A stretch of 64,000 bases of DNA from Anaerococcus porci (GTDB lineage Bacteria; Bacillota; Clostridia; Tissierellales; Peptoniphilaceae), in contig NZ_VULQ01000010.1 in the NCBI RefSeq assembly GCF_009696575.1, positions 1 to 64,000 of the forward strand, written 5' to 3'. Made by a program: the position numbers and the translations under genes. The notes beneath the pieces were generated by a model. That model saw nothing but the letters and a program-made list of their open reading frames with translations. It was not told the DNA's origin and did no database searches. Below are positions 2,408-56,560 of the stretch, piece by piece. Positions within the stretch are counted from its first letter, which is position 1, and each line of letters begins with the position of its first letter.

Positions 2408-2488
2408 AAAATCTAAAATATAACTTGATTTTAGATATTCAAATATTATTTAAATATGATTAAGAATTAAAATAATTGATAAATTCTA

Positions 2489-2637
2489 AGGGCTATTGCA
2501 AAATGAATTAATCGTTTCAAAATCATTAAATCTCTTATATGACAATTTTGCCTCCATGAGCTGTCAGTCCATTCTCAAATTGTCTATGAGTAACTTGTAA
2601 TGATGGAACGATACAAATTTATAATTTGCAACAGCCT
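2489..2637 (-). repeat. Palindromic ~150-bp repeat, copy 1
   Basis: Ends are AGGGCTATTGCAAAATGAATT and its near-complement AATTTATAATTTGCAACAGCCT, followed by a T run. Inner arms (AAAATCATTA and TTGTAATGAT; GACAATTTTG and CTCAAATTGTC) also pair. It lies 81 bases after the DUF2812 stop. The orientation is opposite to copies 4-8. Confidence 0.85.
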
Positions 2638-2767
2638 ATTTTTTATTGATAAATTATCATTTGTTAATATGCTAATCATTACACTATAGAATGAATATTT
2701 ATATTTGATCAATAGAATTATTAATTGACAAACAAATATAATTTAAAGCTTGATTGCCATAAAATAG

Positions 2768-6287: not shown

Positions 6288-6594
6288 ATAATCACTCCTT
6301 AAATAATATAATATAAATTTCACAGCTTAAATAAGATAATAATTATCTATAAGCTTAGTTAGAATTATTAACAGATGAAATTTTATTCTAATTATTTATA
6401 CCCAAATTTAATGGTTGTTAAGAGGTTTTTAGTATATTTTTGTAGCTACAATAAAAATATCCGTATAATTATGAAAATAAGTAATTATTTGAAGCTTAAC
6501 TAGAACAATATTTTTAAAGACAAAAACTAAAGAAAATAAATATTATTAATTTTAATAGGGTATAAATCTAATGATATCATTAAAGGAGAAAATC

Positions 6595-7023
6595 ATGAAA
6601 GATAAAAATTGTGCTTATTGTATGAATAATGAATTAGTAGATGCATTTGGAATTAAGATTGGTGATTTAGAAAATAGTCAGCTATATCTTTTTAAAGAAC
6701 AAAGTCATCTAGGAAGAGTTATTGTAGCTTATAAGAAACACGTAAGTGAAATAGTAGATATTAGCGATGATGAAAGAGATGCTTACTTTTCTGATATAGC
6801 AAAAGTTGCTAAGGCAATCCACAAAATTTTTAAGCCAAAGAAAATTAACTATGGTGCTTATGGCGATACAGGTTGTCATCTTCATTTCCATTTAGTTCCA
6901 AAATATGAGGATGATGAATTTGAATGGGGAGGAGTCTTTGCCATGAATCCAGAAAGGATATATCTTGATGAAGATGAGTATAAAAAGATTATTGACTCAA
7001 TAAAAAAGGAATTGGATTTGTAA
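6595..7023 (+). CDS. HIT family nucleotide-binding hydrolase
   Basis: A 142-residue protein with the histidine triad HLHFHL at residues 95-100, the catalytic motif of nucleotidyl hydrolases and transferases. A CAYC pair near the N-terminus resembles the zinc site of some HIT proteins. The ATG at 6595 has AAAGGAGAA directly upstream; the reading from 6571 adds eight residues and lacks a site. It differs from the HINT-type protein at 54470, so the window holds two HIT branches. Confidence 0.85.
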   Translation: MKDKNCAYCMNNELVDAFGIKIGDLENSQLYLFKEQSHLGRVIVAYKKHVSEIVDISDDERDAYFSDIAKVAKAIHKIFKPKKINYGAYGDTGCHLHFHLVPKYEDDEFEWGGVFAMNPERIYLDEDEYKKIIDSIKKELDL

Positions 7024-7055: not shown

Positions 7056-7213
7056 AAAGAAGCTGTTGCAAAATGAATTTATCGTTTTAAGTATCCACAT
7101 TTCTCTATTAAAATTTTATCTTGACAAGTATTCTATGAAAAGAATTCCTAAGAGAGTGAAGGATGATAGAAGAATAAAATTCATAAAAATTCATAGATTT
7201 GTGACAGTTCTTT
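7056..7213 (-). repeat. Palindromic repeat, copy 2 (diverged core)
   Basis: It starts AAAGAAGCTGTTGCAAAATG and ends TTTGTGACAGTTCTTT followed by a T run. The outer six bases AAAGAA and TTCTTT are complementary but differ from those of other copies. The middle does not match the other copies well yet keeps its own pairing (TATTCTATG region). It lies 32 bases after the HIT gene. Confidence 0.75.
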
Positions 7214-8189: not shown

Positions 8190-9430
8190 AAGTCCATAAT
8201 ATTGTGTAAATTATCCTAGTCCAATATTTACTATTTCATTTTAATATACAATTTAGAAGATGTTATCCAATCCTCATTGATATCAATGAGGATTGCGCCT
8301 ATTAGTCTAATAGCTGAGTCTTCATTTGGAAATATTCTAACGACTTTCTCTCTCCTTCTAACTTCTTCGTTTAGTCTTTCTAAGCAATTGGTTGATTTAA
8401 GTCTACTATGAATTACTCCATTAGATAAATAGGAAAAAGCATCTTCAAAGCCTTCATCTAAGGTGTTTAAAGAGGTTTGATATTTCTTTTCTGTTTCATA
8501 TTTTGAGAAGATTTCTTCTTTCATTTTTCTTGCTAAGTTTATATCTTGGATTTTAAATAGGGCTTTGATGTCTGTTCTAAAGTCTTCAGTGTTTTTCTTT
8601 GGTGCTTTTGATAGGATATTTCTTAAGAAATGTACCTGACATCTTTGCCATATTACATTTAAGAATGTTTCTTTTATTGCTTTTACTAGAGCTTTGTGAG
8701 CATCTGATATTACCATTTTAAGTCCAGATAGTCCTCTAGCTTTTAAATATTCAAAGAAGTTTGACCATGAATATTCACTTTCACTAGAACTTAGGTCTAA
8801 GCCTATGATTTCTCTATTTCCTTTTTCAGTTATTCCTATTGCAATATGACAAGCTTTTGATACTACACGATTGTTTTCCCTTACTTTTATGTAGACCACA
8901 TCTACGATTAAATAAGGGTATTTCACTGAACTTAAGTCACTATTTCTCCATAGCTTTACTTCTTCGTCAAGCTCTTTAGTTAAAGATGATACAAAGGATT
9001 TAGAATATGTTTTGCCACATATATTTTCTATCACCTTGGATACTTTTCTTGTTGATACTCCTTGAACATACATTTCTAGCATGGTTGCAATAGGTACTCT
9101 TAAAGTTAATATTCCTATTTTGGTTGTATAGTCACGTTCATAGTATCCATTACGGTAGGTGATTCTGTTAGGATCTCTTTGATAGGCTGTATTTTCTAAA
9201 TATTCATCTATTTCTTTTTCCATAAGCTCGTTAAATATTTTACTTAGAATAGTTCTTGCCATATCATTTTTAACTTCTTAGTTAATTAAGTTTTGAATAT
9301 CTTCTATGTTTAATGTAAAATGTAATTGGGTCATTTGTTCCTCCTAGTTTAGTTTTGGTTTGTTAAAAACATTGTACTAGTTTGGGTTTTAAATGACCTT
9401 TTTCTTTTTACACAATTATACGGACTCTAT
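8190..9430 (-). mobile_element. IS256-family insertion sequence (full-length, transposase mutated)
   Basis: The element is bounded by imperfect inverted repeats. The left end AAGTCCATAATATTGTGTAAA at 8190-8210 matches the complement of the right end at 9407-9427 in 17 of 21 positions. It carries one transposase read leftwards. The right end is almost identical to the copy at 1-127. I could not define a target duplication with confidence. Confidence 0.8.
8231..9334 (-). pseudogene. IS256-family transposase with in-frame stop at codon 19
   Basis: The natural start is ATG at 9334, preceded by TAGGAGGAAC. It reads MTQLHFTLNIEDIQNLIN, then TAA at 9278-9280, then continues in the same frame to the normal C-terminus. 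A restart at ATG 9262 would give 343 residues. The MULE-type DDE core is intact: Asp in YLIVDVVYIKV, Asp in VISDAHKALV, the C-x2-H region CQVHF, and Glu in TNCLERLNEEVRRR. Complete members of the family are usually 370-410 residues. The stop is one base from CAA (Gln), so this copy may be inactive or poorly active. Confidence 0.85.
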
Positions 9431-9510
9431 CTTTTAATTTGATTGTTTCATTTGTTATTTTTTAATAGTAAATTGTGAAAATATTTTATTATTGAATTGA
9501 AAAAATTAAT

Positions 9511-19552: not shown

Positions 19553-19681
19553 ATGAAATTATTTAATAACTTAAGGAAGAAATGGGAAAATTATTTAAAA
19601 AAATTAGCAAAGGAGAACAAAAAGTCTTTTGGAAATGAAAGGCTAGATTGTTGTTCTATGAATAAAAAAGATAATAAATAG
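19553..19681 (+). CDS. LDCC-motif putative metal-binding mini-protein
   Basis: A 42-residue basic protein beginning MKLFNNLRKKWENYLKKL and ending with the conserved ERLDCCSMNKKD block. A helical Lys-rich N-terminus followed by LDCC matches the LDCC-motif family of Clostridia and relatives. The vicinal cysteines suggest metal binding, but no function is established. ATG 19553 follows a strong AAGGAGG. Its stop is ten bases before repeat copy 3. Confidence 0.75.
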   Translation: MKLFNNLRKKWENYLKKLAKENKKSFGNERLDCCSMNKKDNK

Positions 19682-19690
19682 TATTATTAT

Positions 19691-19846
19691 AAGGGGACTG
19701 TCGCATAATGAATTAATCGTTCAAAATCATTACAAGATCTTTCATGACAAGTTGGCCTCCTCAAGTGGTAGGCTATTCTCAAATGTCTATGAGTAACTTG
19801 TAATGATGAAACGATTGAAATTCATAATTTTGTAACAGCTCCTTTT
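19691..19846 (-). repeat. Palindromic repeat, copy 3
   Basis: It begins AAGGGGACTGTCGCATAATG and ends TTTTGTAACAGCTCCTTTT. Inner arms TCATTACAAG and CTTGTAATGA are perfect complements. It follows the LDCC gene by ten bases, with the T run downstream of that gene. Confidence 0.85.
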
Positions 19847-20221
19847 ATTTATATATATTAATTTTAATAGTATATAATAAGTTTTGTTTGATTATTGAAA
19901 ATTTTATAAAATTAAAATTTTTATCTTAGTTTTTGGATAACTTTATGTAATGAAAAATCATTGATATTTATAAAGATTAGGCAAATATATATTATCAGGA
20001 TAGTGTTTAATTAATACCAAAAATATAGAGCTATAAAAAATCAATATAATAAAAGTATATTATGATAAATATATGAAGTATTAAGTTAGAATTAGCTACC
20101 AATATTTGCTATTATTCTCATCTAATATGGATAAAACAATATAAATTTAATAAGAAAATACTTGAAAAAGCTTTAAATAAGATTAAGAAATTTATAAATA
20201 AATAATATAAAGGGAGGATTT
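19847..20221. other. Intergenic region
   Basis: About 370 bases, very AT-rich, no gene seen. The strong AGGGAGG at 20211-20217 belongs to the next gene. Confidence 0.4.
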
Positions 20222-21518: not shown

Positions 21519-21998
21519 ATGAGTGGTGAATTAGTTGCTATACAAGATACTTATGGGGAACGATTTCAATATTGTTGGGGATGTGGTAGTAAAAATGAAA
21601 AAGGATTGCATATAAAATCTTATCCTAAAGATGAGGGAAATATTTGCTATACTAGGATAAAACCTGATGAAAAATATACAGGAGGAGTTCCACAAAATTT
21701 ATTTGGTGGAATGATTGCTATGATTTTTGACTGTCATGGAACTGCCTCAGCAGCTTTTTTTAACCATAAGAACAAGGGATTAAGCTTAACTAAAGATACA
21801 GTAATAGAAAGATACATTACTGCAAGACTTGAAATAGATTATAAAAAACCAACACCAATGAATGAAGAAATAGAAGTTATATCAAGGCTTGAAGAATTAG
21901 GCGATAGAAAGGCAATAGTAAGTATGGAACTTAAAGCAAAGGATGAGATAAGAGCAAAAGCTAAGATTATTGCTGTAAAAGTTAAGGATAATATGTAA
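21519..21998 (+). CDS. PaaI-like hotdog-fold thioesterase
   Basis: A 159-residue protein with the hotdog signature region QNLFGGMIAMIFDCHGTASA, where the family has its long central helix, followed by ARLEIDYKKPTPM. An N-terminal CWGCG pair is typical of a PaaI-like subgroup. It probably hydrolyses an acyl-CoA or similar thioester; the acyl group is unknown. It lies 61 bases after the ATP-grasp gene with its own AAAGGAGAA site, so it may be co-transcribed. Repeat copy 4 follows the stop. Confidence 0.75.
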   Translation: MSGELVAIQDTYGERFQYCWGCGSKNEKGLHIKSYPKDEGNICYTRIKPDEKYTGGVPQNLFGGMIAMIFDCHGTASAAFFNHKNKGLSLTKDTVIERYITARLEIDYKKPTPMNEEIEVISRLEELGDRKAIVSMELKAKDEIRAKAKIIAVKVKDNM

Positions 21999-22039
21999 AA
22001 TTTTCAACTTAAAACAATCAATATTGGGACTATATTTTT

Positions 22040-22189
22040 ATGGGGTGTTGAAAAATTATGAATTTCTAACGTTGTATTATTATAAGTTCTTCATAGACAA
22101 GTTGAATAAGCTTCCAATTAAGGAGTTCAAATTGTCGTGAAGGAGCTTGTAATGAGTTTGGAACGATAATTCATTCTGCAACATCCCAT
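22040..22189 (+). repeat. Palindromic repeat, copy 4
   Basis: The outer stem ATGGGGTGTTG pairs with CAACATCCCAT through one G-T pair; these end bases differ from other copies but still match each other. T run at 22189-22193. Inner CGTTGTATTATTATAAG and CTTGTAATGAG are partly complementary. It follows the thioesterase gene by 41 bases. Confidence 0.85.
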
Positions 22190-22388
22190 TTTTAAATTAA
22201 TTATTTATATTAAAAATTTTGATTATTTTATAACATATTTATGCACTTACAAATAATTATACATTTATCAATATGAATTTGATTTATGACTTTATATTAA
22301 TTAATATTAATTCTAAACCTTAATATACCTATACAATAAGTATCTAATTTATATTATTACATAAAAATAAATAAATAAAGAAAAATAA

Positions 22389-30495: not shown

Positions 30496-30500
30496 TTAAA

Positions 30501-30656
30501 AAAGGTAATGTTACAAAATTGTGAATTTCTAATGCTCTATAATTACAAGTTACTTATTTACAAATTGAGAATAGCCTGCTGCTTTGGGATGTCAAATTGT
30601 CGTGGAGGAACTTGTAATTATTTTTCAATTATTAATCTATTTGCAACAGTACCTTT
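30501..30656 (+). repeat. Palindromic repeat, copy 5
   Basis: The outer stem AAAGGTA pairs perfectly with TACCTTT; these bases occur in no other copy. It ends three bases from the stop of the minus-strand oxidoreductase gene. On the minus strand the T run TTTTTTAATT follows, as expected if it ends that gene. It also sits just upstream of the ABC promoter. Confidence 0.85.
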
Positions 30657-30659
30657 AAA

Positions 30660-32204
30660 TCAATCCTCAAGTATTGCTATAGCACACTTAAGTCCATCAA
30701 GAGCAGATGATATTATCCCACCAGCATATCCTGCTCCTTCTCCAATTGGTCTTAAATTATTATATTTTAAAGTTCTGTAGTCGTTTTTTCTTTCTATTCT
30801 TATAGGAGATGAAGTTCTTGTTTCAACCCCAGTAAGAATTGCATCAGCTTGGGAAAAGGCATCAATCTTTTTAGAAAAGTTTTTTAAGGCAAGTTTTATA
30901 GAATCATTTATTTTTTTAGGGTAGATTTTATTTAGGTCAGAAAACTTGAAACTTGGACTATAAGATGGTTTGATTTTTCCTATTTTACTAGTAACTTTTC
31001 CATTGAGATAATCATCTACTCTTTGAACTGGAGCAGAATAATTTCCTCCACCAAGCCTATATGCTTTCTCTTCAATTTCTCTTTGAAATTTAATTCCAGA
31101 AAGATTACCATTACCCAAAATATCTTCTCCTATAGTACAAACTATGGCAGAATTTGCATTTGAATTACTTCTATCATGATAGCTCATTCCATTTACACAA
31201 AGTTTATTTTCCTCACTAGATGCGGCTACTACGAAACCTCCTGGGCACATACAAAATGTATAGACAGATATATTATTTTTTTTATCGAAAAATTTTAGTG
31301 CATAGGATGCTTGAGGAAGTCTTTTATCCTTAATTTTATATTGACTAAGATTTATATCCTCTTGTAAGTGCTCTATTCTGAAACCTACAGCAAAGTTTTT
31401 TTGACTTATATCTATATACTTATCCAGCATTATGAAAGTATCTCTTGATGAGTTTCCTAGAGCAAGTATATATTCATCTGCCTTATATTCATTTTTATCA
31501 GTAAGTAAAGATTTTATTTTTTTATTATGAATATTTAAGTCAACGAATTTTTCATTAAAATGAAACTCTCCACCCATCTCTATTATTTTTTTTCTAATAT
31601 TAATTATAACTTTCCTTAAAAGATCTGTTCCAATATGGGGCATTTGTGTATAGATGATATCTTCGGGTGCTCCATTTTCTACCAAAATTCTAAAAATTTC
31701 AACAGATCTCTTATCTTTAGACCTTGATGTAAGTTTACCATCAGAAAAAGTTCCGGCTCCACCTTCTCCAAATTGAATATTTGATTCTGGATTAAGAGTT
31801 TGTGTTTTTATAAACTTATCTATTGATTTAACCCTATCTTCTATTTTTTCTCCTCTTTCAATTAAATGAACCTTTACTCCATGTTTGGCTAAAGTATAGG
31901 AACAAAACAAGCCTGCAGGTCCCGACCCGACAACTACAGCATTCTTAACTTTATTTTTATTTTCTATATTAAGTTCTTCCTCACTAAATTCTGCAATATC
32001 ATTTCTTAATCTTTTTATAGTTTTTTTATCTATTACTGTATCAATTAAAACTTGATACACATAAAAAATACCACGTCTAGCATCAATAGATTTTTTATAT
32101 ATTTTATAAGAATTAATTTTTCTATCAATCTTATTTTCTATAGCATTTTTCAAATCTAATTCATTGCCATCATATGGAATTTTTATATTTCTTAAAATAT
32201 ACAT
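30660..32204 (-). CDS. FAD-dependent oxidoreductase, COG2509 family
   Basis: A 514-residue flavoprotein. An N-terminal extension of about 85 residues precedes the dinucleotide-binding fold VVVGSGPAGLFCSYTLAKHG (GSGPAG near 93-98). Later blocks SNIQFGEGGAGTFSDGKL, FCMCPGGFVVAASS, and the C-terminal GEGAGYAGGIISSALDG are typical of COG2509. Physiological substrate unknown. I start at ATG 32204 with AAAGGA upstream; the open frame extends 51 residues further, but that part is hydrophobic low-complexity sequence without a binding site. Repeat copy 5 probably provides the terminator. Confidence 0.85.
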   Translation of the reverse strand: MYILRNIKIPYDGNELDLKNAIENKIDRKINSYKIYKKSIDARRGIFYVYQVLIDTVIDKKTIKRLRNDIAEFSEEELNIENKNKVKNAVVVGSGPAGLFCSYTLAKHGVKVHLIERGEKIEDRVKSIDKFIKTQTLNPESNIQFGEGGAGTFSDGKLTSRSKDKRSVEIFRILVENGAPEDIIYTQMPHIGTDLLRKVIINIRKKIIEMGGEFHFNEKFVDLNIHNKKIKSLLTDKNEYKADEYILALGNSSRDTFIMLDKYIDISQKNFAVGFRIEHLQEDINLSQYKIKDKRLPQASYALKFFDKKNNISVYTFCMCPGGFVVAASSEENKLCVNGMSYHDRSNSNANSAIVCTIGEDILGNGNLSGIKFQREIEEKAYRLGGGNYSAPVQRVDDYLNGKVTSKIGKIKPSYSPSFKFSDLNKIYPKKINDSIKLALKNFSKKIDAFSQADAILTGVETRTSSPIRIERKNDYRTLKYNNLRPIGEGAGYAGGIISSALDGLKCAIAILED

Positions 32205-32340
32205 AGTCCATCCTTTCCATATTAATTTTATCAGAAAAAAATAATATACGAAATAGAGTGGATTTACTAATATAAATTTTATTAAAGTATTGAAATATAT
32301 GATAAAAATATAATATATAAAAAAATCAATTAATTTTATC

Positions 32341-32369
32341 TTGACAAAAATTTTCATACTTGGTAGAAT
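32341..32369 (+). promoter_or_regulatory. Promoter of T-box-argGH
   Basis: TTGACA at 32341-32346, 17 bases, TAGAAT at 32364-32369. Transcription would start near 32376, at the beginning of the T-box leader. Confidence 0.75.
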
Positions 32370-32375
32370 ACATTA

Positions 32376-32588
32376 AAATAAAGGCTATGAAAAGTGAGTA
32401 TACTTATCTGATACTTTAAGAGAGTCTTCGTGTGGTGTAAGAAGACAGGGAGGATAGGTAGAAAAGGAACTTGGAGCTTACATTTCGATATTTAGATTTG
32501 TACGGTTATGCGTTATAGTAAGAGGTATAGAAATATATGAATTTGGGTGGTACCACGGCTTTCGTCCCTTTTAGGGACGATTTTTTTA
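32376..32588 (+). ncRNA. T-box riboswitch upstream of argG
   Basis: Tandem signs of a T-box: AGTA at 32397-32400, a Stem I with TACTTATC/GATAGGTA, the distal stem GTCTTC/GAAGAC, and the T-box sequence GGGTGGTACCACG at 32545-32557. It ends in the terminator TCGTCCCT/AGGGACGA plus seven T. It senses an uncharged tRNA and then permits read-through. The specifier codon after GAA (32461-32463) aligns as AAG (Lys), but Arg codons AGA or AGG overlap it by shifting one or two bases, so the tRNA is unresolved. Confidence 0.9.
32562..32588 (+). terminator. T-box regulated terminator
   Basis: TCGTCCCT and AGGGACGA pair around TTT and are followed by TTTTTTT. The ACGG...CCACG part of the T-box would form the competing antiterminator. 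Confidence 0.85.
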
Positions 32589-39280: not shown

Positions 39281-39653
39281 ATATTACCTTTCTATTTAAT
39301 ATAAATTATAAGAACTTTAACAAATACTGTCAAATAGTATGTATTTCTTTAGAAATTTAAGATTATACAAGAAGTAAGTTTAGTATAAGAAAAACAAAAC
39401 TTTATTATAAATATAAAAATAAAACTTTTAAATTATTAATTAATCATTTTGTAGTTACTTTTCAAAAAGAATAATATATAGATAAATTGAGTGTAAAAAT
39501 TAGAAACAATAGATTTTATTACATATGAAACTTATTATAGTATTGAGAAATTAAGAAAAAAGTATTATATATGTGTTTTAGCATTGTATCATTTCAAATT
39601 ATTTTTAAATAACTTGAAATGATACAATGCCTAATTAATTCTAAACAACTACT
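39281..39653. other. Intergenic region with a 17-bp perfect hairpin
   Basis: No gene is seen. The region holds only the long hairpin at 39581-39630. Confidence 0.5.
39581..39630. repeat. Perfect 17-bp inverted repeat without T-tract
   Basis: GCATTGTATCATTTCAA and its exact complement TTGAAATGATACAATGC flank a 16-base loop. It follows the metal ATPase gene (minus strand) by 23 bases, but no T run follows on either strand, so it is not a normal intrinsic terminator. It may protect the mRNA end or bind a protein. Confidence 0.6.
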
Positions 39654-41561
39654 TTATATATAATCTTTTGGATTTTCATGTTTCATATACATACATCTTA
39701 TAGCATTTAATATCGCTATAATTGTAACACCTACATCAGCAAATATTGCGGCCCACATTGATGCAAAACCAAAAACACCAAGAATTAAGACTAGAACTTT
39801 AACACCAATCGAGAAATATATATTTTCTTTTACTATTCTTAAACATTTTTTTGATAAGCTAATAGCAGTTGATATCTTGAATGGATCGTCATCCATTAAT
39901 ATTACATCTGCTGCTTCTATGGCTGCATCTGATCCCATAGCACCCATAGCTATTCCAATATCAGAACGAGTAAGAACTGGTGCATCATTTATGCCATCTC
40001 CTACAAAAGCAATTTTTTTATTTTCATTTTTATTATTATTTAAAATCTCTTCAAGTTTACTTACCTTATCTTGTGGTAAAAGTTCTGCGTAATATTCATC
40101 TAAGTTAAGTTTTCTAGCTACATCTTGAGCAACTTCTTTGCTATCACCTGTAAGCATTATTGTCTTACTTATCTTATTTTTTTTAAGTGATTTTATGCTC
40201 GCTTTAGAATTTTCCTTTAAACTATCGCTTATTACAATATGTCCCTCATAAACTCCGTTAATAGCTATGTGAACAGTTGTCCCCACTTTTTCACATTCCT
40301 TCCATTTTATATTGAACTTATCCATCATTTTGGTATTTCCAACATATACTAAGTTACCATTAACTAAGGCCTTTATTCCACAGCCTGGAATTTCTGTAAT
40401 ATCTTTCACTTCACAGCCATCATTTTCATCAGGATAAGCCTTTCTCAATGAATCTGCTATAGGGTGATTTGAATATCTTTCAACATGACTTGCTATATGA
40501 AGAAGTTCTGTTTCACTTTTATATTCAGGATGGACACAACTTACATCAAAAGATCCTTGTGTTAGGGTTCCAGTTTTATCAAATACTACTTGGTCTGTTT
40601 TAGATAAAACTTCCATAAAGTTTGAACCTTTGATAAGTATACCCTCTTTACTAGCACCACCAATTCCTGCAAAAAAAGATAGAGGAATTGAAATAACTAA
40701 AGCGCAAGGGCAGGATATTATAAGAAAAGTTAGTGATCTATATATCCACTGTGACCATAAGGGATTATTACCTATTATAATTGAAAAAATAGGTGGTATG
40801 ATTGCTAAGGCTAGAGCAAGATAAACTACTATAGGTGTATAAACCCTTGCAAATTTTGAAATAAAGTTTTCTGACTTAGACTTTCTACTTGAAGCTTCCT
40901 CAATAAGTTCTAAGACCTTAGTTGCAGTAGATTCTCCAAACTCCTTTTTAGTTTTTACTTTTATAAGACCTTGAAGATTAATAGAACCTGAAAATACCTT
41001 ACTATTTACACCTATATCTATTGGCAGAGATTCCCCTGTTAAAGCCTTAGTATCTAATGATGAGTTTCCTTCAATAACCACTCCATCTATAGGGATTTTC
41101 TCTCCTGCTTTTACTATAATAGTTTTACCTATTTCAACATCATCCGGATCAACTTTTATAAGATTTCCATTTTCATCTTCAATATTTGCATATTCTGGTG
41201 CTATATCCATTAACTCAGCAATTGATTTTCTACTTTTATCAACTGCATATGATTGGAAAAATTCACCTATCTGATAAAATAGCATAACAGCAATGGCTTC
41301 AATATAATCGTAAGAGCCGCTATATATGGCAAGAATTATTGCTCCTATTGTAGCTATTGTCATGAGTAATGATTCGTCAAAGGCTTGTTTATTTTTAATT
41401 CCATTAAAGGCTTTGATTAATATGTCATATCCGACTATAAGATAAATTATCATATAGAGAGTAAACTTCAAAATTCCTTCCACAGGTATAAAATGAAGAA
41501 TAATAAGAAGTAGGGCAGATATTATTATTCTTGTCAAAATTTTTCTTTGTTTACTATTCAT
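39654..41561 (-). CDS. Heavy-metal translocating P1B-type ATPase (Zn/Cd/Co type)
   Basis: A 635-residue metal efflux pump. Motifs: TGES at 175-178, the metal-binding CPC at 284-286 in IISCPCALVI, the phosphorylated Asp in DKTGTLT at 328, the HP dipeptide in SNHPIADSL, and GDGINDAPVL. The membrane ends look like ZntA/CadA types. The usual N-terminal HMA domain is absent and is encoded as a separate gene 12 bases upstream. ArsR and an operator lie beyond, so the unit is metal-induced. Zinc or cadmium is most likely; the exact metal is not fixed by sequence. Confidence 0.9.
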   Translation of the reverse strand: MNSKQRKILTRIIISALLLIILHFIPVEGILKFTLYMIIYLIVGYDILIKAFNGIKNKQAFDESLLMTIATIGAIILAIYSGSYDYIEAIAVMLFYQIGEFFQSYAVDKSRKSIAELMDIAPEYANIEDENGNLIKVDPDDVEIGKTIIVKAGEKIPIDGVVIEGNSSLDTKALTGESLPIDIGVNSKVFSGSINLQGLIKVKTKKEFGESTATKVLELIEEASSRKSKSENFISKFARVYTPIVVYLALALAIIPPIFSIIIGNNPLWSQWIYRSLTFLIISCPCALVISIPLSFFAGIGGASKEGILIKGSNFMEVLSKTDQVVFDKTGTLTQGSFDVSCVHPEYKSETELLHIASHVERYSNHPIADSLRKAYPDENDGCEVKDITEIPGCGIKALVNGNLVYVGNTKMMDKFNIKWKECEKVGTTVHIAINGVYEGHIVISDSLKENSKASIKSLKKNKISKTIMLTGDSKEVAQDVARKLNLDEYYAELLPQDKVSKLEEILNNNKNENKKIAFVGDGINDAPVLTRSDIGIAMGAMGSDAAIEAADVILMDDDPFKISTAISLSKKCLRIVKENIYFSIGVKVLVLILGVFGFASMWAAIFADVGVTIIAILNAIRCMYMKHENPKDYI

Positions 41562-44223: not shown

Positions 44224-46320
44224 ATGAGCCAACCAAAACTAATAACAAAAGTCAAAAATATTATCAAAGAAGAAGGTCTAGAGTTTAAGGACCTAAATGA
44301 CAATGGTAGACTTGATCCCTATGAAGATTGGAGACTAAGTCCAGAAGAAAGAGCAAAAGATTTAGTTAAGAGAATGACACTTGAAGAGAAGTGTGGAAAT
44401 ATGATGATTAAATCTCAAAAAATGGGCCTAAGTCAAGAAGATAAATCAAAAACAAGTCATGATGGTATCTTAGATGAAGAGGTTTTTTATGACCAAACTA
44501 TATTTATAGGTCAAAAAAACTATGGTACAACAGGACACATTAAAGACCTTCATCTAAGACATTTTATACTTAGAGATAATTTCAATGAAGTTGAAATAGC
44601 TAAATGGGTCAATACAATTAATGAAGTATGTGAATCAACAAGATTAGGTATTCCTGCAATAATAGCATCAAACTCAAGAAATGAAAATGCTGAGAGAACA
44701 TTTGGTATGAATGATGCAGTAGGTGTATTTACGACATATCCTTCAACTCTGGGTCTTGCTGCTATTGCTTTAGGAGATAAGGCAAACGGAGGAGATTATT
44801 CTATATTTTCTGAATTTGGAGAAATTGCTAGGGATGAATGGAGATACTCTGGTCTTAGAAAAGGTTATATGTATATGATTGATACTGCAACTGATCCAAG
44901 ATGGCAAAGATTTTATGGTACATTTGGAGAAGATACAGACCTTATATCAAATGCTTGCAAGAGACTTTTAAATTCATTCCAAGGTGAAGATTTAGGAAAA
45001 GATAGCGTAGCTTTAACCATGAAACATTTCCCAGGAGGTGGGGCAAGAGAAAACGGTTTTGATCCTCACTATGAAGAGGGTAAATTCAATGTTTATAAAA
45101 CAAAGGGTTCTTTAGAAAAATATCATCTTCCACCATTTAAGGTTGCATGTGAAGAAAAAGCATCATCAATAATGCCTTATTATTCTATACCTAGTCACGA
45201 AAAAAGTGCAGTTCAATATTTTGAAGGAAAAAGAATACCTTTTGAACCTGTCGGATTTGCTTTTAACGAATATTTTATTCAAAATATCTTAAGAGATAAG
45301 TTAGGATTCAAGGGATATATAAATTCTGATTCTGGTATTTTAGACAATATGGCTTGGGGAGTTCTTCATCTTCCAAAAGAAGAAAGAGCGGCCTTTGCCA
45401 TAAATAACGGAGTAGATTTAATCTCTGATACTAACGAAGTTAAATGGATAATAAAAGCTTGTGAAGAAGGATTAATAAAAGAAGAAAGAATCAACGAGGC
45501 TAATGAAAGACTACTTACAGAAATGTTTAAACTGGGCTTATTTGATGATAAAACATATGTAGATGAAAATAAGGCAAAAGAAATTGTAGAAAACGAAGAA
45601 AACAAGAAAAAGGCCTATAGAGCTCATCAAAAATCTTTGGTATTACTTAAGAATTCTGAAAAAACACTTCCTATTAAGAGTGGTTCAAAAGTTTATATAG
45701 AATACCTACACAAGGAGCTTGATAAGGCAGAGGAATACAAAAAAGAGGCTATAGAAGATGCAAAAGGATTTGAAGAAATTAGCATAGTAGATAATCCTAA
45801 TGAAGCAGATTATGCAATTTGTTTTATAACTCCTAAATCAGGTAATTATTTTTCTGCAACTCCAGGGCTTCTAGAACTTTCTTTATGTGAAGACAAAATA
45901 AATAAGTCTATGGATAATACTGAATATAAGGAAACTACAGTAGCAAACATCAAGAGAGTAAAAGAGCTTAGAGATATAATGAATAAGAATAATAAGAAAT
46001 TGATAGTTAGTGTTAATTCAACTATGCCATGGTTGCTTGATTCTGTAGAGCCTTTATCTGATGCATTATTATCACATTTTGAAACTTTTATAAAAGCACA
46101 ATTAGATGTTTTAGTAGGAAGGGTAGAACCTTGTGGAAAACTTCCATTTACATTTCCTAAGTCAGAAGATGTTATAGCTGTTGATGAAAATGGAAGATGC
46201 ATATCACCAAATGATGTACCAGGTTATGACAAGGACAAGTATATGCCTGATGGGCTAACTTATGCTTATGAAGATAGTGATGGAAATATATATAAACTAG
46301 GACATGGTTTAAGATATTAA
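44224..46320 (+). CDS. Glycoside hydrolase family 3 protein
   Basis: A 698-residue intracellular GH3 enzyme, probably a beta-glucosidase or beta-xylosidase type; no signal peptide. It has an N-terminal EF-hand-like loop DLNDNGRLDPYEDW, the barrel with MKHFPGGGARENG, and the catalytic Asp in GYINSDSGILDNM. The second domain runs from KSLVLLKNSEKTLPI onwards and ends in LTYAYEDSDGNIYKLGHGLRY. It has AGAAGGAGG upstream. No sugar transporter lies next to it. Repeat copy 6 follows five bases after the stop. Confidence 0.85.
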   Translation: MSQPKLITKVKNIIKEEGLEFKDLNDNGRLDPYEDWRLSPEERAKDLVKRMTLEEKCGNMMIKSQKMGLSQEDKSKTSHDGILDEEVFYDQTIFIGQKNYGTTGHIKDLHLRHFILRDNFNEVEIAKWVNTINEVCESTRLGIPAIIASNSRNENAERTFGMNDAVGVFTTYPSTLGLAAIALGDKANGGDYSIFSEFGEIARDEWRYSGLRKGYMYMIDTATDPRWQRFYGTFGEDTDLISNACKRLLNSFQGEDLGKDSVALTMKHFPGGGARENGFDPHYEEGKFNVYKTKGSLEKYHLPPFKVACEEKASSIMPYYSIPSHEKSAVQYFEGKRIPFEPVGFAFNEYFIQNILRDKLGFKGYINSDSGILDNMAWGVLHLPKEERAAFAINNGVDLISDTNEVKWIIKACEEGLIKEERINEANERLLTEMFKLGLFDDKTYVDENKAKEIVENEENKKKAYRAHQKSLVLLKNSEKTLPIKSGSKVYIEYLHKELDKAEEYKKEAIEDAKGFEEISIVDNPNEADYAICFITPKSGNYFSATPGLLELSLCEDKINKSMDNTEYKETTVANIKRVKELRDIMNKNNKKLIVSVNSTMPWLLDSVEPLSDALLSHFETFIKAQLDVLVGRVEPCGKLPFTFPKSEDVIAVDENGRCISPNDVPGYDKDKYMPDGLTYAYEDSDGNIYKLGHGLRY

Positions 46321-46324
46321 TTAT

Positions 46325-46486
46325 AAAAGGGCGCTGTTGCAAAATTATGAATTTCCAAAGTTCAATCATTACAATTTACTCATAGACAATTTGAAAACAG
46401 CCTGCTGGCTTATGAAGGATAAATTGTCTTGAGGAGCTTGTAATGATTTTTGAACGATTAATTCATTCTGCAACAGCTCCTTTTTT
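46325..46486 (+). repeat. Palindromic repeat, copy 6
   Basis: Outer AAAAGGGCGCTGTTGCA pairs with TGCAACAGCTCCTTTT. Inner ATCATTACAA/TTGTAATGAT and AGACAATTTGA/TAAATTGTCTT also pair. It begins five bases after the GH3 stop and ends in six T, so it can act as the terminator of that gene. Confidence 0.9.
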
Positions 46487-46504: not shown

Positions 46505-47407
46505 ATGAAAAAATGCTTATTAATTGAAAATCCTAATTCTGGTAAGCAAAATAATAATCAATATATTGATAGGATAATAGAAAAATTAGAAGAAGGATTT
46601 GATGAAGTTATCCATAAAAGGACAGAAAAAGAAGATGATGCTAAAAAATTTGTCATTAATGCATGTGAAAATAAATATGATTCTATATTTGTTGTTGGTG
46701 GTGATGGTACATTTAATGAGGCCGTTAATGGTATATCTATGATGGAATACAGACCAAAATTAGGACTTCTTCCAGGAGGAACTAACAATACCTATATGCA
46801 ATTAATTGGAGGTTCGAATGAGCTAGATAAAGCAATTGAACAAGTTTCTTTCGAAAAAACTAAAAAAGTTGATATTGGAAAGTGTAATGATAAGTATTTT
46901 TCATATTATGTTTGCTTTGGAAAACTTATAGATGCCACTACCTCAACAAGTTCTGAAGAGAAAGAAAAATTAGGAAGTTTTGCTTACGTTAAAAATGTAT
47001 TAAAAACCATACCAAATGATGAAAGTGTAAATATTGAAATAAAATCAGATTTTAAAACTTTTAAAACAAAGGCATCTTTACTTTATGTTATGACAATTAA
47101 TAAAATTGGAAACTTAGAATTTTCTAAAGAAAACAGTGACATAAACGATGGACTTCTTATAGTTTTTATAATGACTGAAGAAGGATTATTATCAAAAATT
47201 GATGCTGCAAAGGATATGTTATTTGGAAAGTTAGATGAAAATGATAATATAGAATCTTTTACTTGTAAAAAATTATCAATTAAAGAACTTGACGGCAAAG
47301 AAGTTGAACTTGATATGGATGGAGATATAAATGGTAAACTTCCATGTGATATTGAAATTTTAGAAAAACATATAGAAATATATCTGCCAAATACAAGTAT
47401 TCAATAA
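46505..47407 (+). CDS. Diacylglycerol kinase family lipid kinase
   Basis: A 300-residue lipid kinase of the DagK/YegS group. Nucleotide site GGDGTFNEAVNGI near residues 65-77 and GGTNNTYMQ near 95. The second domain has the usual beta-sandwich ending in VELDMDGDINGKLPCDIEI. It probably phosphorylates diacylglycerol or a related lipid. ATG 46505 follows CAAGGAGAA, directly after repeat copy 6. Confidence 0.85.
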   Translation: MKKCLLIENPNSGKQNNNQYIDRIIEKLEEGFDEVIHKRTEKEDDAKKFVINACENKYDSIFVVGGDGTFNEAVNGISMMEYRPKLGLLPGGTNNTYMQLIGGSNELDKAIEQVSFEKTKKVDIGKCNDKYFSYYVCFGKLIDATTSTSSEEKEKLGSFAYVKNVLKTIPNDESVNIEIKSDFKTFKTKASLLYVMTINKIGNLEFSKENSDINDGLLIVFIMTEEGLLSKIDAAKDMLFGKLDENDNIESFTCKKLSIKELDGKEVELDMDGDINGKLPCDIEILEKHIEIYLPNTSIQ

Positions 47408-49551: not shown

Positions 49552-50430
49552 ATGCACATTAAAAAAATATTTTCAACCTTAGCTATTATAATTATTCTTA
49601 CAGGATGCAGTGATACTAATAAAGATGGTGAAAAAGTAAATTTTGATTATGCACCTAATGAATATATTATCGGCATAGAACCTGGTTCAGGTACTATGCA
49701 AGCAGCAAAAAGAGCCATGGATGATTATGGACTCCATCAAACACTTACTACGGGTTCATCTGCTGTAATGACTCAAATGTTAGGAGATGCCATAAGAAAA
49801 AAAGCTCCTATTGTAGTTACCGGATGGACTCCTCACTGGAAATTTGCAAAATATGACCTAAAATTTCTTAATGATCCAAAGGAATCATTTGGCAAGCCAG
49901 AAGAAATTCATACACTTGCAAGAAAAGATTTAAAAAAAGATAAGCCAAATGCCTATAAACTTCTTGATAATTTTGAATGGACTGTAGATGATATGCAAGA
50001 AGTTTTAATAGATTTAAATGATGGCATGGATATAAAAGAGGCATCTAGAAAATGGGTAAATAATAACCATGATAGGGTCCAAAAGATGTATGAAGGAGTA
50101 AAGGTATCTAATGGAGAGCTTATAAATCTTGCTCATGCAACATGGGATAGTGAACTTGCGTCTGCAAATGTATTAAAGTATATACTTGAAGATTATGGTT
50201 TTGAGGTAAGAATGATGGCTGTTGAGATAGGACCTTTATTTGCGGCGATTGCTTATGGGTCTGCAGATGTTACACCTTCAGCTTGGCTTCCACAAACACA
50301 TAAAAATTATATGGATAAGTATGGAGATTTGATAGATGATTTAGGATCAAATTTAGTGAATGCTAGGATTGGTTTTGTAGTACCAGCTTATATTGATATA
50401 GATTCAATAGAAGAGTTAAAAGATTTTTAA
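49552..50430 (+). CDS. opuAC: Glycine betaine-binding lipoprotein
   Basis: A 292-residue substrate-binding protein. The N-terminus ends in a lipobox (IILTGC at about residues 15-20). The binding lobe begins EYIIGIEPGSGTMQ, and aromatic residues in VTGWTPHWKFAKY and SAWLPQTHKNYM would form the betaine cage. It completes the opuA operon eight bases after the permease. Repeat copy 7 follows the stop by six bases. Confidence 0.9.
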   Translation: MHIKKIFSTLAIIIILTGCSDTNKDGEKVNFDYAPNEYIIGIEPGSGTMQAAKRAMDDYGLHQTLTTGSSAVMTQMLGDAIRKKAPIVVTGWTPHWKFAKYDLKFLNDPKESFGKPEEIHTLARKDLKKDKPNAYKLLDNFEWTVDDMQEVLIDLNDGMDIKEASRKWVNNNHDRVQKMYEGVKVSNGELINLAHATWDSELASANVLKYILEDYGFEVRMMAVEIGPLFAAIAYGSADVTPSAWLPQTHKNYMDKYGDLIDDLGSNLVNARIGFVVPAYIDIDSIEELKDF

Positions 50431-50436
50431 TGTTTT

Positions 50437-50595
50437 AAAGGGGTTGTTGCAAAATTATGAATTTCTAATGTTTTATCATTACAAGTTACTCATAGATAAT
50501 TTGAGAATATCCTGCTGACTTATGGAAGCCAAATTGTTGTGGAGGAACTTGTAATGATTTTGGAACAATTAATTCATTTTGCAACAACCCTTTTT
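50437..50595 (+). repeat. Palindromic repeat, copy 7
   Basis: Outer AAAGGGGTTGTTGCAAAA pairs with TTTTGCAACAACCCTTT. Where copy 6 has GCTGTT/AACAGC, this copy has GTTGTT/AACAAC, so both sides changed together. Inner ATCATTACAAGTTACT/CTTGTAATGAT pairs. It lies just after the opuAC stop and ends in TTTTT. Confidence 0.9.
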
Positions 50596-50633
50596 ATATC
50601 TTTTTTCTATGATATAATAGTTTTGGTGATTAT

Positions 50634-55057: not shown

Positions 55058-55079
55058 TATTAATTAAGAAATATAAAAA

Positions 55080-55236
55080 ATGGAGCTATTACAGAAAATT
55101 ATGAATTTCTAACGTTGAATCATTACAAGTAATTCATAGACAATTTGAGAATAGCCTGCCTTTCAGGGAGGCTAAATTGTTGAGGATGAGCTTGTAATGA
55201 TTTTGGAACGATTAATTCATTCTGCAATAGCCCCAT
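55080..55236 (+). repeat. Palindromic repeat, copy 8
   Basis: Outer ATGGAGCTATT pairs with AATAGCCCCAT apart from one mismatch, with GCTATT/AATAGC changed together relative to copy 6. Inner AATCATTACAAGT/CTTGTAATGATT pairs. It lies between the rpsU terminator and the stop of the convergent FemAB gene (five bases away). T runs occur on both sides, so it could end the minus-strand gene. Confidence 0.9.
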
Positions 55237-55240
55237 ATTT

Positions 55241-56260
55241 TTAGTTATTAAGTCTTGGATCGAAATTAGTTTTTTCTTTGCCTTCTATAAATTTGTTATA
55301 ACAATTCTTGTCTATAATACAGTCAATATTGCCAATCCATTTTACTATATTATTGTTAGTTAGTTTTCTTTTGAAGTTATATAAACCATCACTTATATCT
55401 AGAGATTTTACTCCACCTAAATCATAATATCTTATATTATTTTCACAGCAGTATCTAATTTCTTCAGCATCTAGAAAATATGATTGACCAAGATCTTCTT
55501 TTAAATTATCAGCTCCATATAGTGCTATCGAATAATTTCTAAAAGTAATAAGGAAAGAACATGATAAGAATTCACCTTTATATTTTACGAAACTTATTCT
55601 AGAATTATCTTTAAATGCATCATAGAGCTTATAATAATAATCTTTTGGTCTATGATTTATTCCCTTTCTTTCACTCATTTCCTTTGTAATATTATAAAAT
55701 ATTTCTATATCTTCTCTATTTCCAATATAAAGTTCAAAACCTTGTCTATAAGATTTTCTAACCTGTTTTCTTCCGTTTTTTGAATAAGATTGAATAACAT
55801 CTTCAAAGTTTCTTCCATCTATATCAAGCATCATAGAATAAGGAAATTGTATATAAGTATACATTTCATAAGAAAATTTTATTCCATTGTCTTCATATTT
55901 TTCGACAAGTTCCTTACTAAATTCATAGTTAGGATCAAACTTTACTAAAAAACCATCATTATTACTTGCAAAATCTCTTATTTCATCAATAATTTCTTTT
56001 GTTGTATTAATATCATTTAGGTCACAAACAGGACCTCTAGGACAGTAAAACAATTTCTTATTTGCTTTATTATTATAAATAGATAATACTTGAGCTGCAG
56101 CTTTGATTTCACCGTTTTTTTCTATATAGAAACAATTACTATCCCAAGAATCTTTAACATCAGCCCAAGCAAAGTCTTGGAAGATGCTGGTTCTAGGATG
56201 TTTATATAGAAATTTTTTATATTTTTTTACTTGTTTATCATTGTTTAAATCGAGCTTCAT
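55241..56260 (-). CDS. FemAB-family peptidoglycan bridge aminoacyltransferase
   Basis: A 339-residue protein with the double-GNAT fold of FemABX enzymes, which add amino acids from aminoacyl-tRNA to the peptidoglycan precursor. Typical blocks are SIFQDFAWADVKDSW at the N-terminus, SYSKNGRKQVRKSYRQG, ALYGAD, YYDLGGV and YNFKRKL. It has the family length minus the coiled-coil arm of FemA, so it is FemX-like. AGGAGG-like GGAGG precedes ATG 56260. The added amino acid is unknown; the ATP-grasp ligase at 20222 may be part of the same wall pathway. Confidence 0.85.
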   Translation of the reverse strand: MKLDLNNDKQVKKYKKFLYKHPRTSIFQDFAWADVKDSWDSNCFYIEKNGEIKAAAQVLSIYNNKANKKLFYCPRGPVCDLNDINTTKEIIDEIRDFASNNDGFLVKFDPNYEFSKELVEKYEDNGIKFSYEMYTYIQFPYSMMLDIDGRNFEDVIQSYSKNGRKQVRKSYRQGFELYIGNREDIEIFYNITKEMSERKGINHRPKDYYYKLYDAFKDNSRISFVKYKGEFLSCSFLITFRNYSIALYGADNLKEDLGQSYFLDAEEIRYCCENNIRYYDLGGVKSLDISDGLYNFKRKLTNNNIVKWIGNIDCIIDKNCYNKFIEGKEKTNFDPRLNN

Positions 56261-56425: not shown

Positions 56426-56451
56426 AGAGGTGTAAATAAAATAACACAATT

Positions 56452-56560
56452 CTTCAGGGCGGGGTGTAAGTCCCCACCGGCGGTAAAGTCCGCGAGCTTT
56501 TTGCTGAATAGGTGAAATTCCTATACCGACAGTTATAGTCTGGATGGTAGAAGATTACAA
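56452..56560 (+). ncRNA. FMN riboswitch (RFN element)
   Basis: The conserved core is plain: CTTCAGGGCGGGGTGTAAG, CCCACCGGCGGTAAAG, the variable arm, then CCTATACCGACAG and ATAGTCTGGATGG. It binds FMN and turns off the riboflavin genes that follow. A terminator hairpin lies downstream at 56589-56614. Confidence 0.97.

Follow-up and report, generated by a model that had tools for sequence, protein, structure and literature searches.

Copy 6 of a palindromic repeat lies between two plus-strand genes of the window, by which we mean the whole 64,000-nucleotide stretch of Anaerococcus porci DNA that was analysed. Its hairpin starts 8 nt past the stop codon of a GH3-type gene, and the gene downstream (46505-47407, plus strand) carries a diacylglycerol-kinase domain. 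An earlier note, drawn from the letters of the window, had described eight such repeats of ~155 bp. Matches to a covariance model and to sequence patterns in the window confirmed that all eight are real and lie at about the places noted (Table 1), and the ends and inner arms quoted for them are present in the sequence. The copies at 2489, 7056 and 19691 are oriented opposite to the other five. As had also been claimed, a stop codon precedes each of the eight copies; that before the copy at 19691 closes a 42-aa open reading frame (19553-19681, plus strand) encoding an LDCC-motif putative metal-binding protein (NCBIfam, 60 bits compared to a cut-off of 30). We folded L014, which is among the youngest copies in the genome, and obtained -83.4 kcal/mol compared to -34.4 +/- 3.9 for shuffled sequences (z -12.7), indicating that the hairpin of the repeat is not a product of chance.

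Table 1. Copies of the repeat in the window and outer stem of copy 6
Feature	Position	Strand	Context
Copy 1	2483..2645	-	~80 nt past stop codon of DUF2812 gene (1763-2407 +)
Copy 2, diverged	7059..7210	-	3' of HIT-domain gene 6571-7023 +; ends placed by eye
Copy 3	19688..19849	-	3' of 42-aa LDCC-motif gene 19553-19681 +
Copy 4	22034..22194	+	3' of thioesterase-superfamily gene 21519-21998 +
Copy 5	30497..30659	+	End adjoins stop codon of minus-strand FAD-dependent protein gene 30660-32357
Copy 6	46323..46486	+	3' of GH3-type gene 44224-46320 +; covariance-model match including flank starts at 46323
Copy 6, outer stem, 5' arm	46329..46341	+	AAAA (46325-46328) just before
Copy 6, outer stem, 3' arm	46469..46480	+	Then TTTTTT (46481-46486); terminator-like base and T-tract
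Copy 7	50433..50597	+	Immediately 3' of stop codon of OpuAC-type gene 49552-50430 +
Copy 8	55075..55240	+	Convergent gene pair; adjoins stop codon of minus-strand gene 55241-56260

At the Rfam gathering threshold no family was matched by the copies, and the matches in the window were limited to an FMN riboswitch (56446-56559) and a T-box leader (32378-32572). The window also holds a further long palindrome at 39556-39655 (49-nt arms, 73% complementary, 2-nt gap), which stands directly 3' of a minus-strand gene (39654-41561). The inner letters of this palindrome are similar to the inner arms found in one subfamily of the repeat, and it may be a distant relative. Another sequence is present as two 92-nt copies (36-127 and 9340-9431) that are 98% identical.

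Abundance of the repeat and its placement behind genes

The source genome (G000) is a draft of 2.23 Mb in 37 contigs that is 99.79% complete. BLAST with copy 6 returned 45 matches, corresponding to 41 distinct places after removal of four opposite-strand duplicates. At least three additional long copies were found with the covariance model and one (at 7056) by pattern search, giving at least 45 long copies, or about one per 50 kb. The genome also holds at least 10 short copies (about 28-60 bp) that consist of the same terminal stem only, namely nine single-end pattern matches and the hairpin at the end of recA, bringing the total to at least 55. The expectation of many genomic copies was therefore borne out. 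The argument on which it had rested, a density of one per 8 kb, was nevertheless too strong, since the window is a local cluster enriched in copies relative to the genome.

With the covariance model, copies were detected in 16 of 18 further Anaerococcus genomes, the exceptions being G009 and G017, while no match came from 12 genomes representing the order's other families. Likewise, 25 of 29 stretches matching the end sequences were Anaerococcus records. A scan of 206 sequences (728 kb, partly overlapping) for the terminal arm pair returned six distinct matches, of which four were short copies (L080, L127, L133 and L161), one was an IS-type end (L093) and one was a chance match within a gene (L019); the same scan run with six control arm pairs found nothing. 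One longer member (L075, G011:C1:1477400-1478700) measures 263 bp between its ends and contains additional inner palindromic letters. Outside Anaerococcus, short hairpins were seen in an Oscillospiraceae MAG (L112, L113 and L123) and a Eubacterium MAG (L114) that end in TTATTCATT, A or T, TGCAACAG, C or T, CCC and then a T-tract. Despite the similar end we rejected these as members of the 155-bp family, since they are short hairpins; they are possibly similar elements in other Clostridia.

Placement was counted relative to long open reading frames called by script, with elements masked with stop codons, rather than to an annotation. A stop codon lay within 100 bp of 36 of the 40 copies that could be placed (40 of at least 45), and 27 of 29 copies between tandem genes were closer to the stop than to the next start. 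Convergent placement was found for 11 of 40 copies and divergent placement for none, compared to 28 tandem, 6 convergent and 5 divergent gaps of at least 20 bp in the window. For nine of 10 short copies, a frame of at least 90 codons has its stop no more than 100 bp away, and the tenth (L209) was near the stop of a 45-codon frame only. The arrangement expected of an intrinsic terminator, a stem followed by a T-tract at the 3' end of a gene, was found as well, with a strong T-tract (6 or more T among the 8 nt past the 3' arm) in 22 of 37 copies; such a tract was found at 3.3% of positions in the window and at 4.1% of control places that lie 40-60 nt from copies. An A-tract (6 or more A among the 8 nt that precede the 5' arm) was present in 16 of 37, compared to 5.0%. 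A second terminator was detected past 3 of 37 copies and past 6 of 32 control genes, using a search too insensitive for these counts to be informative.

Ends shared with IS1182-family elements

In A. octavius (G015) and Anaerococcus sp. Marseille-P3915 (G011) we found a 1804-1809-bp element encoding an IS1182-family transposase (NF033551, 293 bits compared to a cut-off of 270), with six intact copies in each genome; these names, like those of A. vaginalis (G003), A. tetradius (G005) and A. nagyae (G012), are as inferred. A broken copy with 1826 bp between its ends is present in G016, and six further genomes of the genus gave partial or weak matches. The left end of the IS starts with GGGGCTGTTGCAAAA, as does that of the repeat, with 15 nt identical; its right end reads inwards TGTTGCAGAAT, three letters and TAAATC, and the right end of the relatives' repeats does likewise. 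Since the IS and the repeat have only about 15 nt in common at the left and 11 nt at the right, a different IS1182 element may be the true parent. The A. porci draft itself gave no IS1182 transposase match at E 0.001, and its single-end pattern matches included no pair 1-2.5 kb apart that would mark a parent with the same ends. A stop codon lay within 50 nt of 11 of 13 IS copies. One IS copy (L067) has no stop codon nearby, and another (L069, G011:C1:689800-694800) is flanked by the two halves of an open frame and so lies within a gene.

The repeats thus combine two ends that match those of an IS1182-family IS with a length of ~155 bp, the absence of a transposase gene and a high copy number, and by sequence they are a MITE family with IS1182-type ends. 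This supports the earlier description of them as MITE-like and supplies the related autonomous element. They would be mobilised in trans by an IS1182 transposase.

Exchange of hairpin for hairpin at gene ends

We searched six MITE loci of G006 in relatives after removing the MITE from the pair of flanks. G004 gave a one-piece match at five of the six, and a hairpin of 19-36 nt was present at the junction in all five. Four of these sites showed a clean single gap (19, 24, 25 and 36 nt), and at the fifth (L189) the hairpin was present and the alignment split; the match to the sixth locus was split over two contigs. The sole one-piece match in G005 (L191) was too diverged to read, and a hairpin lay further downstream. 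At the G006/G004 sites the A-rich and T-rich flanks were kept and no target was duplicated, so that the two features of the IS1272 mode, deletion of a target hairpin and absence of a target duplication, were found at five of five readable loci among the six. Inspection by eye of the flanks of the youngest A. porci copies and of the IS copies likewise revealed no target duplications.

Five loci of A. porci itself (those of pyruvate:ferredoxin oxidoreductase, malic enzyme, hydroxylamine reductase, a lysS/metG-type gene and ahpF) were compared by eye with 20 sequences from relatives. Seventeen had an ordinary hairpin and T-tract, and at the oxidoreductase locus conservation of the left flank extended to the hairpin base in six of six sequences. 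The other three had a diverged MITE, in each case 3' of ahpF (G001, G007 and G008), in which one outer pair was G-C, A-U and an A-C mismatch, respectively. Five IS loci gave a similar picture: 17 of 20 relatives' sequences had a hairpin, which was weak at msrB in G016 and at a YcaC-like gene in G012; one had a short copy and two had a MITE. The latter were at recA and rodA in G012, that at rodA about 50 nt further out. Both IS flanks could be matched at two of the five loci, recA (G015) and a rodA-type gene (G011 compared to G016), and at both of these a full-length IS replaces a hairpin. Thus, the IS of G011 stands in place of the hairpin kept by G016, and the 3' end of recA bears an IS in G015 (L062), a MITE in G012 (L160), a short hairpin in G000 (L161) and ordinary hairpins in six others.

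Taken together, these comparisons demonstrate that hairpin is exchanged for hairpin at gene ends. They also demonstrate past movement of the MITE family, which is evident from empty sites in relatives and from three near-identical copies with different flanks, L006, L007 and L014, which lie at different places in the genome.

We next consider base pairing within the copies, for which pair counts were based on the L014 fold, as an RNAalifold consensus of 37 copies recovered only part of the hairpin. Arms were exchanged among 35 of the 37 copies, two of three near-identical rows having been dropped. The six outermost pairs were standard in 86.2% of cases within copies compared to 75.9% after exchange (z 7.5, 0 of 2000), and columns 9-13, which judged by the youngest copies lie inside the element, gave 86.9 compared to 77.0% (0 of 2000). 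The next six pairs gave z 1.4 (286 of 2000). All 49 inner pairs exceeded the exchanged arms (86.6 compared to 85.2%, z 3.8, 0 of 2000), as did 38 of them picked by hand (91.9 compared to 90.8%, 10 of 2000), indicating that the interior is also kept paired, by a smaller margin. Cells changed on both sides numbered 26 compared to 10.6 in shuffles that ignore relatedness (0 of 500; 37 rows, 18 pairs). Two stricter counts were not clearly above shuffles, namely pairs with a double change (8 compared to 6.1, with 79 of 500 reaching 8) and further pair types (25 compared to 22.4, 59 of 500). Single inner pairs above shuffles were 41/141, 45/137, 52/127 and 85/102, while the outer pairs 7/169, 14/162 and 15/161 were not above them. 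Since part of the target stem survives in some outer pairs, the excess at the outer pairs is not all due to selection, and it mixes inheritance of the target stem with possible selection.

Proposed mechanism, alternatives and known systems

We consider it highly probable that this MITE family, which most of the searched Anaerococcus genomes carry, is moved in trans by IS1182 transposases and both replaces and rebuilds terminators. The transposase would recognise the hairpin (cruciform) of a terminator and join the element at the hairpin base, with the old hairpin being removed. Insertion between the retained A- and T-tracts would then rebuild a (bidirectional) terminator, as the element folds into a hairpin of its own and the host tracts remain in place, so that the gene would retain its 3' end and the insertion would be almost harmless. 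Old copies would diverge, with pairing kept most clearly in the outer stem beside the T-tract, and some would probably lose their middle and become ordinary-looking terminators of about 28-60 bp; we infer that the short forms arose in this manner rather than as independent elements. The element probably spreads by becoming the very stop signal that it removed, and the copies would terminate transcription in the cell. We more tentatively raise the view, which we regard as possible but somewhat short of likely, that Anaerococcus terminators are a transposon habitat in continual turnover, in which hairpin-replacing MITEs turn the terminators of the host into further MITE copies, these copies are kept by selection as the terminator of their gene and shrink through loss of the middle, and that a noticeable share of 'normal' terminators in the genus is transposon-derived.

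MITEs are generally intergenic, and the copies might accordingly be neutral, standing behind genes because insertions elsewhere were selected out, and neither targeting terminators nor acting as one. The two stricter covariation counts would suit such an explanation. It is decidedly improbable, however, given the hairpin replaced at every readable G006/G004 locus, the bias to the stop side with no divergent placement among 40 copies, and the T- and A-tracts at the copies. The earlier note had instead offered a retained structured RNA, i.e. a 3'-UTR regulator or small RNA that was duplicated and whose hairpin is kept for regulation. Consistent with this idea, the long hairpin is very stable and is retained in 20 copies from relatives, and the inner pairs are slightly and consistently above exchanged arms. 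We nevertheless consider it very unlikely, as the copies match no Rfam family at the gathering threshold, their ends equal IS ends, and short forms lacking the interior occupy the same kind of place. Nor do the two descriptions form alternatives, because the repeat is mobile DNA whose RNA form resembles an intrinsic terminator.

The copies are also extragenic, palindromic and multi-copy, as would be expected of REP/RAYT-type palindromes or of a MITE belonging to another IS family. REP/RAYT systems comprise palindromes with an associated RAYT gene, and REP palindromes measure 20-40 bp compared to 155 bp for the long copies described here. Since both ends match the IS1182 ends of the genus and IS1272-type hairpin replacement was seen, an origin of this kind is extremely doubtful. 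If replacement and rebuilding of terminators by an IS1182-mobilised MITE is correct, then Anaerococcus harbors a mobile element with almost no cost of insertion, because it supplies what it destroys, and a route exists for the exchange of intrinsic terminators. Hairpin replacement as known from staphylococci is also extended to Anaerococcus and to elements that are non-autonomous, and the many natural before/after pairs would be useful for studying recognition by the transposase.

Like the copies, intrinsic (Rho-independent) terminators consist of a stem at the 3' end of a gene with a T-tract behind it and, in many cases, an A-tract ahead of it. Their arms are roughly 6-12 bp, whereas those of the Anaerococcus MITE are about 70 bp, and the MITE is mobile. 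The closest published counterpart in entry is TnSha1/IS1272, of the IS1182 family in staphylococci, which targets hairpins and causes a blunt deletion of the stem-loop without duplication (Furi et al. 2016, PMC4923244); five of seven targets were RNA-seq-confirmed terminators (PMC4923244). Wan et al. (2017, PMC5678879) named the IS1272 mode inverted-repeat-replacing transposition. IS1272/TnSha1 and the Anaerococcus elements have in common IS1182-family ends, a target hairpin that is deleted wholly or partly, the lack of a duplication and some targets that are hit repeatedly. In contrast to IS1272/TnSha1, which carry a transposase, the Anaerococcus elements are mostly non-autonomous hairpins (about 28-263 bp) that rebuild a terminator-like hairpin, and the word 'MITE' is absent from the text of PMC4923244 and PMC5678879.

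Small elements with IS1182-type ends and without a transposase gene are likewise on record. Methanosarcina acetivorans has two ISMac2-related MITEs, one of 160 bp in 14 copies and one of 169 bp in 7 copies; one of the two has 4-bp repeats and the other none (PMC3852290). MITEPye1 of Paracoccus yeei is an IS1182-type MITE with direct repeats and 1-3 chromosomal copies that, like the Anaerococcus MITE, folds into a long stem-loop (PMC11578231). The string 'terminat' is absent from the text on MITEPye1 (PMC11578231). The Anaerococcus MITE differs from these other IS1182-type MITEs in that no direct repeats were seen, in its replacement of a hairpin and in its high copy number. The statement that no named family matches therefore stands with respect to Rfam at the gathering score, but not with respect to the hairpin-replacing IS1182 elements and IS1182-type MITEs in these publications (PMC4923244, PMC5678879, PMC3852290, PMC11578231). 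Among the matches listed from open-licence papers we found no MITE that removes a terminator and rebuilds one. Since replacement of hairpins by IS1272/TnSha1 has been published (PMC4923244, PMC5678879), the way of entry by hairpin-replacing transposition is already known, and what is new is a non-autonomous version that is self-restoring and also occurs in short forms.
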